63,382 nucleotides of DNA from an uncultured Bacteroidota bacterium. Lineage in GTDB: Bacteria > Bacteroidota > Bacteroidia > Chitinophagales > Saprospiraceae. Made by a program: the position numbers and the translations under genes. Under the pieces are notes generated by a model, which was given only the letters and a program-made list of their open reading frames with translations, did no database searches and was not told where the DNA came from. Below are positions 14,909 to 44,515 of this stretch, piece by piece; within the stretch, counting starts at the first letter, position 1, and each line of letters opens with the position of its first letter. The stretch lies in NCBI GenBank assembly GCA_937870795.1, contig CALMWS010000078.1, positions 1 through 63,382 of the forward strand, given 5' to 3'.

Positions 14909-15226
14909 TTAGTTGAGCTGCGCATTTATTTTTTCTGCCAGATTGGCTTTGGTAGTAGTTCCTACATGTTTGTCAACCACCTGACCGTCTTTGATGATAA
15001 GGATGGTAGGAATTGAGCGAATGCCATACTGCATTGAGATTTGCGGGTTTTCGTCAACATTTACTTTGCCGATTTTTACCCTGCCGTCAAAATCTTTTGC
15101 CAGGTCTTCAACGATCGGACCGATCAATCTGCATGGTCCGCACCATTCTGCCCAAAAGTCAATTACTGCAACACCTCCGGATAAGGCGGTTTCCTTGAAG
15201 TTTGCATCTGTGAATTCTAATGCCAT
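14909..15226 (-). CDS. trxA: Thioredoxin
   Basis: A 105-residue cytoplasmic disulfide reductase with active site WCGPC (Cys29, Cys32), the following VEDLAKDFDGRVKIGKVNVDENP and the cis-Pro segment IRSIPTILI. The start ATG 15226 (MALEFTDANF) gives the normal length; 21 codons more are open upstream but not conserved. Followed by a strong terminator. Confidence 0.97.
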   Translation of the reverse strand: MALEFTDANFKETALSGGVAVIDFWAEWCGPCRLIGPIVEDLAKDFDGRVKIGKVNVDENPQISMQYGIRSIPTILIIKDGQVVDKHVGTTTKANLAEKINAQLN

Positions 15227-15366
15227 TGTCTTATTTGTTTGATAATTTTTTGTAAATATACAACATCTCAAACACCCATTCGGTGACAAAAGTTGCAGAC
15301 CGGTATCAGGAAGAATATTAATGCTTTGTTAAATGACCGCTGGCCGACAAATCAACATTGGCTCGA

Positions 15367-34527: not shown

Positions 34528-35943
34528 CTACAGTAGAGTAGTAGGGCAAACGTATTCAGTTTTGGGCACATCTTGTTTAGATATAGCGCCAAAGCCACCG
34601 ATCACATCTACAAAATCATTCCATCCTCTCTGCTTGAGGATAGAAGCAGCTACCATGCTTCTGTATCCTCCTGCGCAGTAGATTACAAATGATTTGTCTT
34701 TTGGAAATTCAGCCAGATGTTGGTTGATTTGGTTAAGTGGTACGTTGATGGCATCAACAACGTGTTCTGCATCAAACTCACTCTTTTTGCGCACATCGAA
34801 AATTACTTTTTTGTCCTCTTTGTACATCGTTTCAAATTCCTGAGCCGTAATTCTCTTGAAATTATCTGTTTCTTTACCTGCATCCAACCAGGTTTGGAAT
34901 CCTCCTTTGAGATAGCCGATTACGTTGTCATATCCCACTCTTGAAAGTCTGATCAGTGATTCTTCCAATCTGCCGGGCTCGGCAACCAATAAGATTTCCT
35001 GCGTGACATCTGGAATCATTTCACCAACCCACTGTGCAAAATTGCCATCGATGCCGATGTTGATGGAGTTGGGGATAAAAGCATTGGCAAAACTTACGCC
35101 ATCTCTTGTGTCGAGGATCAAAGCCCTTGTTTCATTGGCAGCTACTTCAAATTCGATGGCATTCAAAGGAGTTTTGGCTCTTTCCAAAACAGTGTCAAGG
35201 CTTTCATACCCTTTGATATTCAACAATACGTTCTGAGGAAAATATCCCGGAGGCGTGGTCAGGCCGTCGAGTAAAACTTTGATAAATTGTTCTTTGCTGA
35301 GGCTTGGATCCAGGGCATAGTTTACCTTTTTCTGATTGCCCAGGGTGTCTGTAGTCTCTTTGCTCATCTTTTTGCCACAGGCACTTCCTGCGCCGTGATT
35401 TGGATAAACAATGAGGTCATCACTCAATGGCATGATTTTGTTTCTCAATGAATCATAAAGATGCCCTGCCAGTTTTTCCTGCGTTAGATCTGCAATTACA
35501 TGCTGAGCAAGATCGGGTCTGCCCACATCACCTATAAAGAGGGTATCACCGGTGATGAGTCCGTGTTCTTTACCATTTTCATCAATGATCATGTAGGTAG
35601 TAGATTCCATGGTATGGCCAGGTGTATGGATAACCTTAACTTTACATTCTCCTACTTCAAAAATTTGATTGTCAGCAGCAACAATGGCATCGTATCCGGG
35701 CTTAGCAGTGGGGCCAAAAACGATTTGCGCACCCGCTTTCTTTTGAAGATCAAGGTGTCCGCTCACAAAATCTGCGTGGAAGTGGGTTTCGAAAACATAT
35801 TTGATTTTGGCGTTGGCAGCAACCGCTCTTTCGATATAGGGATTTACTTCTCTGAGAGGGTCAAAGATGGCTGCCTCTCCATTGGATTCCAGGTAGTAGG
35901 CAGCGTGTGCAATACATCCGGTATAAATTTGCTCTAACTTCAT
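34528..35943 (-). CDS. CstB-like persulfide dioxygenase/rhodanese fusion, copy A
   Basis: 471 residues with three domains. An N-terminal metallo-beta-lactamase domain (residues 1-250) has [11 protein letters not shown] and further ligands in HTPGHT and [13 protein letters not shown], as in ETHE1/CstB persulfide dioxygenases. A first rhodanese-like domain (about 260-360) lacks the active cysteine (ILLVAEPGR at the loop). A second rhodanese (370-471) has the active loop CAGGYRSM, Cys near residue 422. This is the architecture of Staphylococcus aureus CstB, which converts persulfides to sulfite and thiosulfate. Own promoter, operator and terminator. Paralogous to the gene at 38640. Confidence 0.92.
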   Translation of the reverse strand: MKLEQIYTGCIAHAAYYLESNGEAAIFDPLREVNPYIERAVAANAKIKYVFETHFHADFVSGHLDLQKKAGAQIVFGPTAKPGYDAIVAADNQIFEVGECKVKVIHTPGHTMESTTYMIIDENGKEHGLITGDTLFIGDVGRPDLAQHVIADLTQEKLAGHLYDSLRNKIMPLSDDLIVYPNHGAGSACGKKMSKETTDTLGNQKKVNYALDPSLSKEQFIKVLLDGLTTPPGYFPQNVLLNIKGYESLDTVLERAKTPLNAIEFEVAANETRALILDTRDGVSFANAFIPNSINIGIDGNFAQWVGEMIPDVTQEILLVAEPGRLEESLIRLSRVGYDNVIGYLKGGFQTWLDAGKETDNFKRITAQEFETMYKEDKKVIFDVRKKSEFDAEHVVDAINVPLNQINQHLAEFPKDKSFVIYCAGGYRSMVAASILKQRGWNDFVDVIGGFGAISKQDVPKTEYVCPTTLL

Positions 35944-35984: not shown

Positions 35985-36028
35985 CAAATTTGGCTGTTCG
36001 TAAAATAATAGTGTGCTACCTTGGTCAC
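35985..36028 (-). promoter_or_regulatory. Operator and -7 element of cstB-like gene A (shared sulfur-locus motif)
   Basis: On the minus strand GTGAC-CAAG-GTAGC (36028-36015), exactly 22 nt, then CAAATTTG (35992-35985). This is the weakest of four palindromes (three of ten arm bases off GTAAC-N4-GTTAC), but spacing to the -7 is identical to the others. The -7 differs from TAnnTTTG at one base. Confidence 0.55.
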
Positions 36029-36181
36029 ATAGGTCAATGACGCGAATCATTTTGGTGGGTGACTGCAGGCATCGTTTGTTGAAAAAAATATTTTATTGAT
36101 TGGATATTCATGTATTCTATTGATAATCAAATAGGTAGTAAGGTGTATTTGCAAAACAAACCGGCAGTGATGTCGCTTTAA

Positions 36182-36225
36182 TTAACTTTGGTTACCTTTG
36201 ATTAGCCCGCACCGGCAGAAATTTG
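36182..36225 (+). promoter_or_regulatory. Operator and -7 element of tauE (shared sulfur-locus motif)
   Basis: TTAAC-TTTG-GTTAC (36182-36195), 22 nt, then GAAATTTG (36218-36225), 13 nt before the ATG. A second, perfect -7 (TACCTTTG, 36193-36200) overlaps the palindrome, so two start sites, one activated and one occluded by the same factor, are conceivable. Confidence 0.55.
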
Positions 36226-36238
36226 CAAAAAACAAAAT

Positions 36239-37033
36239 ATGGAATACGTAGGATACTTTGCTTCAATTTTGATAGGCGTTTCTTTGGGCTTAATTGGCGG
36301 AGGGGGCAGTATACTAACAGTTCCTGTGTTGGTGTATTTGTTCAACATCGAGCCTGTTACTGCTACTGCATACTCTTTATTCATTGTAGGCCTTACCAGT
36401 GGCGTTGGATCGGTTAACTATTTTTTAAAACAACTGGTGGACGTCAAAACGGCCATCATCTTTGGTATTCCCTCCATCATTGCCGTATTTATGACCAGAG
36501 CGTTGATTGTGCCCGCAATTCCAGCTGAAGTATTTGAAGTAGGTGGGTTTGTGGTGAGTAAACGGTTATTGCTCATGGGCCTTTTTGCTGTGCTCATGAT
36601 TGCCGCTTCGTACAGCATGATTAAAAAAAGTGTTGAATCCACAGAAACGGCAGGACCCAGGACTTACAATTATCCTGTGATTTTGCTGGAAGGAGCCATT
36701 GTGGGCATTCTTACGGGTTTGGTAGGAGCCGGTGGTGGCTTTTTAATTATACCGGCCCTTGTTGTGCTAAGCAAGTTGCCAATGAAGATGGCAGTGGGAA
36801 CTTCTCTGGTTATCATAGCTGCAAAATCCCTGATAGGTTTTTTTGGAGAAGGGGGAGATACTATGATCGACTGGACCTTTCTTGCCATCGTTTCTGCATT
36901 TGCCATAGCAGGTATATTTATTGGCAGTGCCCTTGCAAAAAATATCGATGGCAATAAATTGAAGCCGGCATTTGGGTGGTTTGTTTTGATTATGGGTATT
37001 TATATTCTTGCCAAAGAACTATTGGGGGCATAA
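36239..37033 (+). CDS. TauE/SafE family sulfur-compound exporter
   Basis: 264 residues, eight transmembrane helices in two homologous halves, each with the family glycine signature (LIGGGGSILTVP near residue 20 and GLVGAGGGFLIIPAL near residue 165). TauE members export sulfite, sulfoacetate or related anions; in the S. aureus cst locus a TauE sits beside CstB and SQR, as here. Its own promoter carries the shared operator. Likely removes sulfite made by the CstB-like enzymes. Confidence 0.93.
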   Translation: MEYVGYFASILIGVSLGLIGGGGSILTVPVLVYLFNIEPVTATAYSLFIVGLTSGVGSVNYFLKQLVDVKTAIIFGIPSIIAVFMTRALIVPAIPAEVFEVGGFVVSKRLLLMGLFAVLMIAASYSMIKKSVESTETAGPRTYNYPVILLEGAIVGILTGLVGAGGGFLIIPALVVLSKLPMKMAVGTSLVIIAAKSLIGFFGEGGDTMIDWTFLAIVSAFAIAGIFIGSALAKNIDGNKLKPAFGWFVLIMGIYILAKELLGA

Positions 37034-37200
37034 TTTTTCAAAAAAGATTTTTACTTCTTTTTTTGTAAATTTGTTTCAAATACGATTAACAGTATAATGT
37101 TTGGTTGTCTATTAGATTTCAAGGGTAAACAAAATTTTATTTTGCAATATTCGATAATTATATTGCCAATTAGCTCTCTTTCAAAACATTAATCGGTTGT

Positions 37201-37244
37201 GTGACTTTTGTTACCTAACTTTATTTGAGATTTTCTCATAATTG
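37201..37244 (+). promoter_or_regulatory. Operator and -7-like element of sqr (shared sulfur-locus motif)
   Basis: GTGAC-TTTT-GTTAC (37201-37214), 22 nt, then CATAATTG (37237-37244), a weak -7 matching four of six consensus bases. ATG follows 17 nt later. An alternative TTTATTTG (37220-37227) lies nearer the palindrome. Confidence 0.55.
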
Positions 37245-37261
37245 CAGTAAAATTTAACAAA

Positions 37262-38461
37262 ATGTCGCAACATCACCAAATTTTAATTGTGGGCGGAGGT
37301 AATGCCGGTATTTCGGTTGCAGCCCAGTTATTACGTAAAAAAGACAATCTGGACATAGCCATTATTGAGCCTTCAGATAAACATTACTACCAGCCTGCAT
37401 GGACTTTGGTTGGTGCCGGAGAATTTGAAATCAACAAAACAGTCAGAGAGCAACAATCGTGCATGCCAACTGGTGCGACCTGGATCAAAGACGCTGTAAG
37501 TTCTTTTCAACCCGACGACAACCAGCTTACAACTGCCAAGGGAACTGTTATTTCTTATGATGTTTTAATTGTTTGTCCGGGCTTGCAGGTAGACTGGGAT
37601 AAAATAGAAGGACTCAGGGACACCTTGGGTAAAAACAATGTCAGCTGCAACTACTCATTTCAACATGCACCCTATACCTGGGAAATGATCAAAAATTTTA
37701 AAGGAGGTAAAGCGGTTTTTACCAATCCGGTTTCACCCATTAAATGTGGTGGTGCCCCACACAAAATCATGTATTTGGCTACTCACTACTGGACCAAGAT
37801 GGGCATTCCGTATGAAGTTCACTATCTTTCTGGTGCGGGTGCAATTTTTGCTGTCAAAGAATACGCAGAAACGCTCAATAAAGTGGTCAAGAAAAGACAC
37901 ATCCATACCCATTTTGGGGTCAATGTGGTAAGCATTGACGGAGATGCAAAAAAAGTCTTTTATGAAGAAAAAAATCAAAATGGCGAATTGGAAATAAAGG
38001 CCATGGATTTTGATTTCTGTCATGCTGTTCCTTCCATGAGTGCACCCGATATCATAAAGCACAGTGAATTGAAAGACAGCAACAATCCTTATGGTTATGT
38101 TGAAATCGACAAACACACCATGCAACACATTCGTTTTCCCAATGTTTTTTCTTTGGGAGATTGCACCAACGCTCCATGTAGCAAGACTGGTGCTGCGATT
38201 AGAAAACAAGCCCCTGTGGTGGTTGCCAACGTTTTGTCTTTTATGGACAACAGCCCGCTGGCCGCAAGGTATGAAGGTTACAGTGCCTGTCCCATACCAA
38301 CCCAGTATGGCAAGCTAATGTTGGCAGAGTTTGATTACACCAATACGCCAAAAATGAGTTTTCCGTTTGATCAGACAAAACCGAAAAAATCAATGTGGGT
38401 ATTGAAAAAATACGGTTTGCCATGGTTGTATTGGAATAAGATACTTAGAGGCACAGCTTAG
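37262..38461 (+). CDS. sqr: Sulfide:quinone oxidoreductase (SQOR type)
   Basis: 399 residues. N-terminal FAD fold ILIVGGGNAGISVAAQL; the two redox cysteines expected of SQR are in PIKCGGAPHKIMYLATHYW (Cys162) and LGDCTNAPCSKTGAAI (Cys301, with Cys306 near). The KCAGAPQKI-like motif matches mitochondrial/type II SQOR. The C-terminal segment is amphipathic for membrane docking. It oxidises sulfide to a persulfide, passing electrons to quinone. It has its own operator and a hairpin terminator, and lies between tauE and the second cstB-like gene. Confidence 0.93.
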   Translation: MSQHHQILIVGGGNAGISVAAQLLRKKDNLDIAIIEPSDKHYYQPAWTLVGAGEFEINKTVREQQSCMPTGATWIKDAVSSFQPDDNQLTTAKGTVISYDVLIVCPGLQVDWDKIEGLRDTLGKNNVSCNYSFQHAPYTWEMIKNFKGGKAVFTNPVSPIKCGGAPHKIMYLATHYWTKMGIPYEVHYLSGAGAIFAVKEYAETLNKVVKKRHIHTHFGVNVVSIDGDAKKVFYEEKNQNGELEIKAMDFDFCHAVPSMSAPDIIKHSELKDSNNPYGYVEIDKHTMQHIRFPNVFSLGDCTNAPCSKTGAAIRKQAPVVVANVLSFMDNSPLAARYEGYSACPIPTQYGKLMLAEFDYTNTPKMSFPFDQTKPKKSMWVLKKYGLPWLYWNKILRGTA

Positions 38462-38480
38462 ATTTATTCACTAAATAAAA

Positions 38481-38512
38481 ACGGGGTGCAGTAAATAAAT
38501 TCTGTACCCTGT
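38481..38512 (+). terminator. Hairpin after sqr
   Basis: ACGGGGTGCAG (38481-38491) pairs with CTGTACCCTGT (38502-38512), eleven pairs with two G-U, followed by an AU-rich but not T-only tail. Separates sqr from the next promoter. Confidence 0.6.
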
Positions 38513-38549
38513 TAATAATTATATTAGTGCCAGACAAAAACAAAAATGT

Positions 38550-38593
38550 GTAACAAAGGTTACTCGTTGATGTAATCCACTAGTATAATTTTG
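38550..38593 (+). promoter_or_regulatory. Operator and -7 element of cstB-like gene B (best copy of the shared motif)
   Basis: A perfect palindrome GTAAC-AAAG-GTTAC (38550-38563), 22 nt, then TAATTTTG (38586-38593), a perfect -7. The palindrome centre is 36.5 nt from the last base of the -7, about -43 from the likely start, a class II activator position. A TTG at 38567-38569 is only 16 nt from the -7. Confidence 0.7.
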
Positions 38594-38639: not shown

Positions 38640-40055
38640 ATGCAAATTGAGCAAATTTACACAGGCTGCCTTGCTCAAGGGGCCTATTATATTACATCCA
38701 ATGGCGAAGCAGCCATTATAGATCCACTCAGAGAAGTTCAACCCTATCTTGCCAGACTTGAAAAAGATGGGGTTCAATTGAAATACATTTTTGAAACCCA
38801 TTTTCATGCCGACTTTGTTAGCGGCCATCTCGACCTGAGTAGTAAAACAGGAGCCCCTGTAGTCTATGGACCCAATGCCAAACCCAATTTTGATTTTATA
38901 TCAGCTGCAGATGGTCAGACCTTCAAAGTAGGTGATGTCACCCTGGTGGCTTTGCACACTCCGGGGCATACGATGGAAAGTACCTGTTATCTTTTGCGCG
39001 ACAAAGATGGCAAAGACCATGCTTTGTTTTCCGGTGATACCCTTTTCATCGGAGATGTAGGCAGGCCGGATCTTGCTCAAAAGGCAGCATCCATGACCCA
39101 GGAAGAACTGGCAGCTACCTTGTACCACTCACTGCGCAACAAAGTTATGACTCTTGCAGACGATGTAATTGTTTACCCAGCCCATGGAGCCGGCAGTGCC
39201 TGTGGAAAAAATATGAGCAAGGAAACAGTATCTACCATTGGAGAACAAAAGCGAAACAATTATGCATTAAGGGCCAATATGACCGAAGCAGAATTTATCA
39301 AAGAAGTTACCGATGGACTCTTGCCTCCTCCGGCTTATTTCGGCGCCAATGTGGCTATGAATAAAATGGGCTATGAAAGTTTTGAAAAAGTGTTGAACCA
39401 GGGGCTGCGAGCTTTAACACCCGCAGAATTTGAAGTGGTAGCAGAAGAGACAGGGGCCCTGATATTGGATACCCGGGCCAATGGTGCTTTCTGGCAGGGC
39501 TTTATACCACAGAGTATCAACATTGGCCTTTCAGGTGATTTTGCTCCCTGGGTAGGTGCCCTCATTGCAGATGTAAAACAACCGATCTTATTGGTAACAG
39601 AAAACGGCAGAGAAGAAGAAGCCGTCACCCGATTGAGCAGGGTAGGTTTTGACAATGTATTGGGACATTTACAAGGGGGATTTGAAGCATGGAAAAACAG
39701 TGGCCGCAAGATTGATACAGTAAACAGGATTACAGCCGATCAATTTGCAAATGCAGTAGTCATTGGCACAGACAAAGTGTTAGACATTAGAAAAGAAAGT
39801 GAATACGCAGCTGAACATATTGAAGAAGCATATAACCGTCCCCTAGCTTATATCAACGATTGGGTTAAGGACATCCAGCCGGGAGAGCATTTTTACATGC
39901 ATTGTGCAGGGGGATACAGGAGTATGATAGCCGCGTCAATTCTTCAGGCCAGAGGGTTTAGAAATTTTTCTGAGGTGGAAGGTGGATTTTCAGCCATCTC
40001 CAAAACGGAAGTTCCCAAAACTGACTTCGTATGTCAAAGTAAAGTGATGGGATAA
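38640..40055 (+). CDS. CstB-like persulfide dioxygenase/rhodanese fusion, copy B
   Basis: 471 residues, same three-domain plan and same length as the gene at 34528-35943 and collinear with it throughout. The MBL domain has [11 protein letters not shown] and [13 protein letters not shown]; the central rhodanese loop reads ILLVTENGR with no cysteine; the last rhodanese has [10 protein letters not shown], Cys near residue 422. Differences are scattered, so the duplication is old rather than recent. It has the best operator of the four. The following YeeE gene starts 123 nt later behind a hairpin. Confidence 0.92.
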
Positions 40056-42413: not shown

Positions 42414-42830
42414 ATGAAAAAATTGATTCCTTTTTTAATTTTGTTTTTTACCCTTACCATATCAACGATATATGCACAGGGTAAAGACCACAAAGTTGTT
42501 TTTCAGTTTACCCTGGCCGATTCCATGCAACAAAAAGCATTTAGCAACCAATTGAAAAACCTAAGAAAACACTGGCCGGATGCCCAGATAGAGGTTGTTG
42601 CTTATAACCAGGGTATTGATTTTTTGATGACTAAACGTACCCGTCATCACGACATCATTGCAGAGCTGAAAAGTAAGGGAGTAAGATTTGTGGTGTGTCA
42701 GAATACCATGAATCAGCGAAACATTAAGGCAGATGAGCTGATACCAGAAGCAGAAATTGTGCCTGCTGGCATCGCGGAGATCGTCGAGAAACAGGAACAA
42801 GGTTGGTCATACATCAAAGGTGGTTTCTGA
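42414..42830 (+). CDS. Exported DsrE/DsrF-like protein
   Basis: 138 residues: signal peptide (MKKLIPFLILFFTLTISTIYA, shown in part: cut near IYAQG) and a DsrE-fold domain with a single conserved cysteine in RFVVCQNTM (near residue 95). DsrE/TusD proteins carry sulfur as cysteine persulfide, normally in the cytoplasm; an exported form is a periplasmic sulfur-carrier candidate. The TGA stop overlaps the ATG of the soxB-like gene by one base (TGATG), indicating coupled translation. Confidence 0.88.
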   Translation: MKKLIPFLILFFTLTISTIYAQGKDHKVVFQFTLADSMQQKAFSNQLKNLRKHWPDAQIEVVAYNQGIDFLMTKRTRHHDIIAELKSKGVRFVVCQNTMNQRNIKADELIPEAEIVPAGIAEIVEKQEQGWSYIKGGF

Positions 42831-44515
42831 TGGCAGGGTCTAACAGAAGAAACTTCCTCAGGCAGCTTTCGCTATTAAGTGCTGCAGCTGGTACTTCATT
42901 GCCGGCCAAATGGGTTTTGGAAACCGATGAAAAAAGTACGCCAAAAAGCAAAGGAAAAAAGACGACTAAAATCGGTATTTTTCAAACCACAGATGTGCAT
43001 TGTCAAATCCACCCGCACGATGAGATGTTTTGGGAAAATGAGGGAATGGTTTTCAGAAAGACGGGTGGTTATGTGGCTTTGAAGTCAACCCTCAAACAAC
43101 TCAGATCGAAGTACAGGCATAGCTTTGCCATCGACACTGGCGATATGTTTCAGGGCAGTGAACTCAGCGTAAAAACCACAGGCGAGGCCTTTGTGCCCAT
43201 TTTGAATACCATGGGGTATGATCTGTATTTACCGGGAAATTGGGAGGTAATTTACGGTAAGAAAAAAATGCAAACATTATTGGGAGGCCTCAATGCTCCT
43301 AAGGTATGTGCCAATATGTACCACGACATTGGTGCTGGCGTAAAAGGTGAATTGATTTTTCCACCATATTATATTTGGTATGTGGAGGGCGTTAAAATTG
43401 GTTTCCTGGGTTATACAGATCCACTGGTGCCATTGCGCCAAAGCCCCAATTACAGCAAAGGCATCATCTATACCAAGCCCGAAGAAAACTTAAAACATTA
43501 TGTTGAAATTCTGAAATATCAGGAACAATGTGATTTGGTGATCATCGTGGCCCATCTGGGCTTATCTCAGCAACTGGCGCTTGCCAACAATGAAGATTGT
43601 GCAGGTGTGGATTATATCTTTGGAGGCGACACTCATGAAAGGGTGCGAAAGCCCATTGAGGCAAAGTTTGCTAAGGTGGTGGAACCCGGGGCTTTTGGGT
43701 CATTTATTGGCAGACTTGAACTCACCCTGGAAGAAGGCAAAATTGTAAAGGATAGCTATGACCTTATTGAGGTGGATGCAGCAAAGGCAAAGGATGACCC
43801 AGAGATGAAAGAGCTGATCGAAAAAGCAGAAGCGGTATTCAAAAAAGATATTCATACCGTAGTGGGGTATAGTACTGTGCCTTTGTACCGATATTTTGTA
43901 ATTGAGAATACAATAGACACGATGGTGGTAGATGCACTCAACTGGAAATATCCCGGAGTTGATGTTGTGCTTTCCAATGGCTTTCGGTTTTGCCCACCGA
44001 GTGCTACCAAAGACCATACGGGCAATTACCCTATTACCCATGGTTATATATATGATATGCTGCCGGTCGATAGTCCCGTAAGATCTGGCAAGGTAAAAGG
44101 CAGCATCTTACTCGAATGGCTGGAAAAAGAACTCAACAATGTTTTTGCCAAAGATGCTTCAAAAAGATTTGGTGGCTGGGTGGTGAAATTTAAAGGTATG
44201 CAACTTAAGTTTTATGCCTTTGGAGAGATGGGCAAAAGAGTCAAAGAGGTTCAAATCAAGGGTCAGGATCTTGATGCCGAATCTTATTACACAGTTTTGG
44301 CATGCGAAAGAGATGGCGATCCGGCTGATGTCATTTGCAGAATTAAGGGCATCACGGAGGCAAAAAATACAGGAGATACTTTGCACCAGGTAATGTTGGA
44401 GTATCTGTCAGTAAACTCACCTGTAAGTCCACTGCCACACCACAATGCTGTGGCTCTTGATGCACCGGAAACACTCTTGACACAAGTGAGTGGCGTGCCA
44501 TATAATTTTCATTGA
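42830..44515 (+). CDS. soxB: SoxB-like dimanganese thiosulfohydrolase (5'-nucleotidase fold)
   Basis: 561 residues with a Tat signal (NRRNFLRQLSLLSAAAG). Metallophosphatase motifs: TTDVHCQIHPH, IDTGDMFQGSE, LPGNWEVIYG (Trp instead of the His of nucleotidases, as in SoxB), VAHLG and GGDTHERV. The C-terminal 5'-nucleotidase domain follows (residues 330-561). SoxB removes the terminal sulfonate from sulfur bound to SoxYZ. No SoxYZ, SoxXA or SoxCD gene is in this window, so either these are elsewhere or another carrier, perhaps the coupled DsrE-like protein, replaces SoxYZ. Confidence 0.87.
   Translation: MAGSNRRNFLRQLSLLSAAAGTSLPAKWVLETDEKSTPKSKGKKTTKIGIFQTTDVHCQIHPHDEMFWENEGMVFRKTGGYVALKSTLKQLRSKYRHSFAIDTGDMFQGSELSVKTTGEAFVPILNTMGYDLYLPGNWEVIYGKKKMQTLLGGLNAPKVCANMYHDIGAGVKGELIFPPYYIWYVEGVKIGFLGYTDPLVPLRQSPNYSKGIIYTKPEENLKHYVEILKYQEQCDLVIIVAHLGLSQQLALANNEDCAGVDYIFGGDTHERVRKPIEAKFAKVVEPGAFGSFIGRLELTLEEGKIVKDSYDLIEVDAAKAKDDPEMKELIEKAEAVFKKDIHTVVGYSTVPLYRYFVIENTIDTMVVDALNWKYPGVDVVLSNGFRFCPPSATKDHTGNYPITHGYIYDMLPVDSPVRSGKVKGSILLEWLEKELNNVFAKDASKRFGGWVVKFKGMQLKFYAFGEMGKRVKEVQIKGQDLDAESYYTVLACERDGDPADVICRIKGITEAKNTGDTLHQVMLEYLSVNSPVSPLPHHNAVALDAPETLLTQVSGVPYNFH

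Follow-up and report, generated by a model that had tools for sequence, protein, structure and literature searches.

At the class II promoters of Escherichia coli CRP and FNR, the activator palindrome is centred near -41.5. In Bacteroidota, the -7 promoter element has the consensus TAnnTTTG. Sulfur genes of the sqr, cst and sox type are controlled by CstR, SqrR, FisR and SoxR, which belong to protein families other than Crp/Fnr. Here, we analyzed a 63,382-nt contig from an uncultured Saprospiraceae bacterium (CALMWS010000078.1, assembly GCA_937870795.1; the whole stretch is called the window), in which 5-4-5 palindromes related to GTAAC-N4-GTTAC lie at one fixed distance from the -7-like elements of sulfur and thiol genes. 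We put at about 0.8 the probability that a dimer of one Crp/Fnr subfamily binds these palindromes as a class II activator of genes for sulfide, persulfide and thiosulfate sulfur, a reading drawn from sequence. The predicted arrangement resembles the E. coli promoters in having a palindrome with an activator centre near -41.5 and differs from them in the Bacteroidota -7 element and in its targets; it resembles CstR, SqrR, FisR and SoxR in the control of sulfur genes and differs in protein family.

Two described Crp/Fnr proteins bear on this locus. The motif of HcpR2 in Bacteroides, Clostridium and others, GTAACnnnnGTTAC, is identical to the palindrome (PMC1274295), and the type of site is therefore not new. 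HcpR2 shares the superfamily, and its substitution at position 181 is consistent with the difference in motif, but it has hcp targets, a role in nitrogen-oxide metabolism and Pro at 181 (PMC1274295), whereas here the genes are sulfur genes and the residue is Val or Glu. PgRsp of Porphyromonas gingivalis is described as a redox-linked protein of unassigned Crp/Fnr family, possibly a novel family of unknown function, which shifts the hmu and bcp promoters and binds heme; single Ala exchange of Cys76, Met78 or His85 did not abolish this binding (PMC6955866). The available part of that report discusses PgRsp as a heme-binding redox sensor and names neither an operator motif nor a sulfur regulon. 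A cyclic AMP (cAMP) analogue was not bound by PgRsp (PMC12040651).

Operators and -7 elements in the window

Reading the sequence directly, we located four palindromes letter for letter at the coordinates of the original prediction, and at all four exactly 22 nt separate the palindrome from a -7-like element. That set of four is real but was incomplete, as a fifth palindrome with the same spacing, before a thioredoxin gene, had been missed. The operators, -7 elements and genes are listed below, with scores from a matrix trained on 73 non-redundant promoters, all taken from other genomes; CstB is the name that we take to apply to proteins with metallo-beta-lactamase and rhodanese domains.

Operator A, 36015..36028, minus strand: GTGAC-CAAG-GTAGC, matrix score 22.7, for cstB-like A
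Operator B, 36182..36195, plus strand: TTAAC-TTTG-GTTAC, matrix score 20.7, for tauE
Operator C, 37201..37214, plus strand: GTGAC-TTTT-GTTAC, matrix score 23.1, for sqr
Operator D, 38550..38563, plus strand: GTAAC-AAAG-GTTAC, perfect, matrix score 30.0, for cstB-like B
Fifth operator, 15283..15296, minus strand: GCAAC-N4-GTCAC, matrix score 22.4, 22-nt spacing, before the thioredoxin gene
-7-like element of cstB-like A, 35985..35992, minus strand: CAAATTTG, 22 nt past operator A
-7-like element of tauE, 36218..36225, plus strand: GAAATTTG, 22 nt past operator B
Weak -7-like element of sqr, 37237..37244, plus strand: CATAATTG, 22 nt past operator C
-7 element of cstB-like B, 38586..38593, plus strand: TAATTTTG, perfect TAnnTTTG, 22 nt past operator D
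-7-like element of the thioredoxin gene, 15253..15260, minus strand: TATATTTA, 22 nt past the fifth operator
cstB-like A, 34528..35943, minus strand: metallo-beta-lactamase and rhodanese (persulfide dioxygenase/sulfurtransferase type)
tauE, 36239..37033, plus strand: sulfite exporter TauE/SafE family
sqr, 37262..38461, plus strand: sulfide:quinone reductase-like (nearest NCBIfam model type III SQR, 233.6 bits, below the cut-off of 525)
cstB-like B, 38640..40055, plus strand: metallo-beta-lactamase and rhodanese
Thioredoxin gene, 14909..15226, minus strand: PF00085

Five window matches scored at least 20 (D, C, A, the fifth site and B), and the next best scored 11.2. As a control, the top score among 20 first-order Markov windows was 19.5, and a larger set of 300 such windows gave 3 matches of at least 20, compared to 5 in the real window. 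Since no other window match reaches a matrix score of 12, the promoters of DUF547, LytTR and TetR genes lack the operator, as had been claimed, and the letters likewise agree with the description of the sqr -7 element as poor. The statement that the -33 element is missing is only roughly true: the TTG of a -33 element has an accepted distance from the -7 element, and a TTG persists near that place 17 nt before the -7 at the operator B promoter and 16 nt before it at the operator D promoter. Operator A, previously called the weakest, is not poor by the wider logo described below, and its GTAGC is the usual right half in the site-bearing Chryseobacterium loci.

When operator B is read on the minus strand toward cstB-like A, a 5/6 -7 match is found 22 nt away at 36152-36159, with a matrix score of only 11.2. 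In another genome (G269), perfect -7 elements flank a single palindrome at 22 nt in both directions (C1:2653669-2653742). One operator may serve two divergent promoters.

Conservation of the 22-nt spacing in relatives

The best 80 of 591 confirmed cstB loci, many of them from Flavobacterium, were taken as relatives. The composite of palindrome, N22 and -7 element was found in 98 of the 146 regions upstream of tauE, cstB and cstB-A genes (tauE 43/58, cstB 52/83, cstB-A 3/5), compared to 7 of 618 control regions upstream of unrelated open reading frames in the same loci. The enrichment before the cstB and tauE genes of relatives that had been proposed as a check was therefore found. We also counted spacings from 5 to 38 nt, allowing palindromes up to 2 mismatches and requiring a -7 match of 5/6 or better. 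Among 134 distinct palindromes before tauE or cstB, 97 had a -7 match at 22 nt, and at most 7 had one at any other offset. Because the criterion was the same for every offset, the peak at 22 nt is not made by the -7 criterion. Such rigid spacing is as expected for contact with the polymerase, and the fixed site in place of the -33 element fits the class II activator proposed earlier.

The logo of the 73 promoters reads T-GTAAC-aaat-GTnAC-tGT-N19-nAnnTTTG; its bases within the palindrome and the -7 element are inflated by selection, while the flanking bases are not. Outside the palindrome, T is seen at positions -2 and 0 of the logo and GT, 19 nt ahead of the -7, at positions 16-17, with A-rich stretches on both flanks. 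This GT could be a leftover of the -33 element or a polymerase contact. Two contigs titled as Rhizobium sp. and Bifidobacterium breve metagenome-assembled genomes (L115 and L153) carry cstB-tauE loci with matches of 76% and 69% to the Bacteroidota-type protein of the window, and they are probably mislabelled or misbinned.

A linked Crp/Fnr regulator

The window's own genome (4.53 Mb, 97% complete) has 12 places with a cyclic nucleotide monophosphate-binding domain, and two of its genes encode PgRsp-like regulators:

PgRsp-like regulator, Val type, G000:C187:5725-6375: 216 aa
Second PgRsp-like regulator, Glu type, G000:C317:3-446 (L210:3-446): truncated at the contig edge

The type of regulator homologous to the C187 protein was found in 43 of the 80 loci. 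In 36 loci, it lies directly upstream of tauE or cstB (at most 600 nt, same strand), and in 33 of these the gap holds a composite operator. The regulator is present in 42 of the 60 loci with a 22-nt site, compared to 1 of the 20 without it. These results confirm the suggested link to one type of Crp/Fnr gene. When five other Crp proteins of the same genome were used as queries, in addition to the PgRsp-like one and L007, none of these types had a match closer than 600 nt to tauE or cstB across the 80 loci (7 matches were farther off), and they were rejected as the regulator.

Co-occurrence was tested in 296 Bacteroidota genomes with a strict operator pattern. Operator and regulator occurred together in 59 genomes, the regulator only in 58, the operator only in 3 and neither in 176; hence the regulator is present in 59/62 operator-positive and 58/234 operator-negative genomes (Fisher p = 2e-25, without kinship correction). 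Within the same class (73 genomes), the corresponding counts were 48, 14, 2 and 9, with the regulator in 48/50 compared to 14/23 genomes (p = 3e-4, again without kinship correction).

The Glu-type gene on C317 is directly followed by GTGACCAAAGTCAC (L210:443-456) with a -7 element at 23 nt, and no clear gene lies within 800 nt past it on that strand. In one genome of the set (G289), another kind of Crp/Fnr gene (L262:82-840) has an operator-like site in front of it, and a regulatory cascade is possible there.

Recognition helix and operator base

In this superfamily, residues 180 and 181 correlate with motif bases (PMC1274295). The residue of the C187 protein that aligns with CRP Glu181 is at position 191. 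One or more half-sites of the GTGAC type were found in 32 of 32 rows with Glu at this position, compared to 1 of 36 rows with Val, and this covariation of a recognition-helix residue with an operator base favors the Crp/Fnr-family reading made in the original prediction. Three genomes have an operator near both regulator types (G202, G088 and G002), and the expected difference between Val- and Glu-associated operators was seen in them; in G088, an A/A site also falls in the stretch that surrounds the Glu-type gene, some 4 kb away from the Val-type one. Of the five window operators, two (B and D) are A/A and three (A, C and the thioredoxin site) have a G half-site. The Glu-type C317 regulator may serve the three operators with a G half-site.

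Relationship to PgRsp and the invariant cysteine

The L009 regulator belongs to the Crp/Fnr superfamily by PF00027 (39.9 bits, cut-off 27.5) and PF13545 (31.9 bits, cut-off 27). Across 50 aligned regulators, eight columns do not vary (G60, Y77, C85, S98, F152, H179, R190 and R195), of which R190 and R195 align with Arg180 and Arg185 of the CRP recognition helix. Against the CRP equivalog model, the regulator scored 70.2 bits (cut-off 266), and the region aligned with the phosphate-binding cassette for cAMP differs, in a gapped alignment. FNR carries its Fe-S cluster on an N-terminal cysteine cluster; this set was not found, with Cys9 and Cys30 of L009 each present in 2% of 42 rows.

The subfamily has the PgRsp length of about 207-216 aa. 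A P. circumdentaria member, read from Met20, has 207 aa with Cys76, Met78 and His85, and the length and these three positions are those of PgRsp (PMC6955866). We infer that P. gingivalis PgRsp is in the same subfamily from this agreement with the P. circumdentaria member, which stood in for the PgRsp sequence in the comparison. A Cys at the position of PgRsp Cys76 is present in all 72 rows (some of them duplicates) but one, which is truncated there, and a Met two places on is common without being invariant.

Cys85 is the only invariant cysteine in the 50 regulators; many regulators also have C91/C92, but those of the CIMSFLGG group do not. Since heme binding survives the change of Cys76 in PgRsp, the subfamily cysteine is free for another role, and an invariant cysteine in the ligand domain makes sensing of thiols or sulfane sulfur plausible. 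The best sequence match in the PDB, the uncharacterized Crp/Fnr protein 3dv8 (63 bits), also has Cys at the positions of Cys85 and Cys91. It differs in coming from another phylum, as E. rectale is given as its source (PMC6955866), and the cysteine is therefore not confined to the subfamily.

Predicted targets elsewhere in the genome and in other genomes

With N22, the composite search of the window's own genome gave 3 matches at 0 mismatches, 5 at 1, 11 at 2 and 42 at 3. If all 42 three-mismatch matches were due to chance, simple counting would expect about 0.003, 0.13 and 3 matches at 0, 1 and 2 mismatches. With N23, there were 2, 0, 4 and 64 matches at 0 to 3 mismatches. Exact GTRACNNNNGTTAC occurs at 14 distinct places. 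Six of these lie outside the window and are followed, after 22 or 23 nt, by TAnnTTTG (perfect or 5/6) with a gene of interest downstream: at 22 nt, a small membrane protein that matches no Pfam family, an 83-aa rhodanese, OsmC and DUF983; at 23 nt, a rhodanese lipoprotein and a MerC-like protein. Two others (L023 and L024) have no -7 element near 22 nt. On the other strand, the composite search added a 1-Cys peroxiredoxin and a rhodanese with an HMA protein after it; bcp, the gene whose promoter PgRsp shifts, encodes a peroxiredoxin. Overall, the predicted targets in this genome comprise three rhodaneses, OsmC, 1-Cys peroxiredoxin, MerC, DUF983 and thioredoxin.

When 19 matches to the operator pattern were sampled from the genome set without regard to genes, 15 preceded sulfur or thiol genes: 9 metallo-beta-lactamase and rhodanese (five from one genus, g18), 2 YeeE, and one each of TauE, sulfate-permease family, OprD-like and thioredoxin-like. 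The other four preceded a Tll0287-like gene, another Crp/Fnr gene, an AAA protein gene and a ferritin gene 270 nt away. Taken together, these results strongly support a regulon broader than first noted, namely a predicted set of Bacteroidota sulfur and thiol genes under the control of a Crp/Fnr protein.

A further site, on C229, precedes a gene whose protein was judged by reading to be kelch/galactose-oxidase-like. The one-mismatch match at C201:1086-1129 was rejected, as it has no convincing downstream gene and is probably due to chance or a DinB promoter with 24-nt spacing. For GTRACNNNNGTTAC in this genome, the backwards-read control gave 63 and 59 matches compared to 12 and 9 for the pattern, and the operator letters seem to be avoided, or the mirror letters favored.

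Proposed mechanism and alternative explanations

The window promoters very probably belong to class II and serve sulfur and thiol genes under a Crp/Fnr subfamily of which PgRsp seems to be a member. The palindrome would be the binding site of a dimeric regulator from one distinct subfamily that is widespread in Bacteroidota. The dimer would sit some 41 bp ahead of the start, its centre 36.5 nt from the final base of the -7 element, where it would replace the -33 element and contact RNA polymerase as a class II activator. The sequences themselves show the sites and their spacing, conservation, linkage and co-occurrence with the regulator, and the association of residue with base; binding, activation and transcript start are all predicted from them. 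The targets would remove or handle sulfide, persulfide and thiosulfate sulfur through the cstB-like, sqr, tauE and yeeE/yedE products, rhodaneses, thioredoxin, peroxiredoxin and OsmC. More speculatively, the invariant cysteine of the ligand domain would sense reactive sulfur. The wider proposal, that this cysteine senses sulfane sulfur directly and activates a phylum-wide sulfur and thiol regulon, with some genomes, perhaps including this one, running Val and Glu paralogues in parallel on A- and G-type operators, is put forward only tentatively.

Several observations weigh against a PgRsp-like activator at these sites. The regulator gene lies outside the window, and its 17-kb contig C187 has no operator scoring at least 15, so that autoregulation of the C187 regulator was rejected. 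Although this regulator is of the Val type, a G half-site is present in operators A and C and at the thioredoxin site. Among the relatives, 48 of the 146 target regions have no composite at 22 nt, and 37 of the 80 loci have no regulator of that type in the stretch covered, although the gene may lie elsewhere, as in the window's own genome. The strict pattern is absent from 58 of 117 regulator-positive genomes, and a reversed-pattern control gave 40 matches in 37 genomes, 22 of them regulator-positive compared to about 15 expected; base composition therefore plays some part. In the window's own genome, the backwards-read control is richer in total matches (172 compared to 61 with N22, 255 compared to 70 with N23, not split by mismatch), and thus only matches with 0-1 mismatch stand out and weak single sites cannot be trusted. 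On the tree, the rows that link residue and base fall into clusters, with at least 5 changes and 3 independent supported pairs, of which on average 2.9 go in the same direction and 0 in the opposite one (sign test, p = 0.25); with only three independent pairs, the tree-corrected test cannot reach significance. Finally, PgRsp is reported with heme and the hmu and bcp promoters, and the available part of the source names no sulfur genes (PMC6955866).

That the four sites are chance AT-rich palindromes near promoters is hardly credible: site A does have three mismatches to the strict palindrome, the sqr -7 element is weak and loose matches are more numerous in the backwards-read control than for the pattern, but 300 Markov windows together gave fewer high-scoring matches than this single window, and the composite is conserved across genera. 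Binding by an HcpR2-type nitric-oxide regulator would account for the identical motif, which site D matches perfectly, and four Crp proteins of this genome (L003, L006, L008 and L012) have by eye the Gln at 181 that is given for P. gingivalis HcpR2 (PMC1274295). According to the same source, however, the GTAAC motif goes with Pro at 181, while the Gln and Ser forms have other motifs (PMC1274295). Pro was present in 0 of 10 Crp proteins of this genome read by eye (L002-L004 and L006-L012), and the two PgRsp-like regulators have Val (C187) or Glu (C317). In addition, the operator-linked gene is the PgRsp-like one rather than HcpR, and no hcp (PF03063) was found in the 97% complete genome by a search that was positive in 5 of 14 control genomes; HcpR was set aside on this ground, and we consider HcpR2 binding very unlikely. 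A PgRsp-like regulator might instead act as a repressor, since deletion of pgrsp raised oxidative-stress genes (PMC6955866) and SoxR, a sulfane-sulfur regulator of sulfur oxidation in another phylum, is a repressor (PMC10451225). This is unlikely, as the site ends 22 nt upstream of the -7 element, overlapping the -33 place rather than the -7, and the rigid spacing of 22 fits polymerase contact.

The palindrome letters were already known; for the targets, the regulator subfamily and the promoter geometry fixed across the phylum, a word search of the open-licence literature found no report, and passages of PMC13014561 and PMC11582611 had no bearing on the regulator. For a major bacterial phylum, the reading gives a specific operator, a promoter geometry and a likely regulator of how sulfide and persulfide are handled. 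It also suggests what PgRsp-type regulators, for which a possible novel family of unknown function has been described (PMC6955866), are likely to do. The Val/Glu association offers a testable specificity code, and the invariant cysteine a test of sulfane-sulfur sensing by a Crp/Fnr protein.

Other genes at the locus

The proteins of cstB-like A and cstB-like B are paralogues with 57% identity. Downstream of cstB-like B, up to 45965, lie two YeeE/YedE halves and genes for a SoxA/TsdA-like cytochrome, DsrE, a SoxB-like protein and an OprD-like protein (22.2 bits, under the Pfam cut-off of 25). The SoxB-like protein (42803-44515) scored 230.6 bits against an NCBIfam cut-off of 550. Since it and the SQR-like protein are far under the curated cut-offs, both may represent divergent subfamilies.

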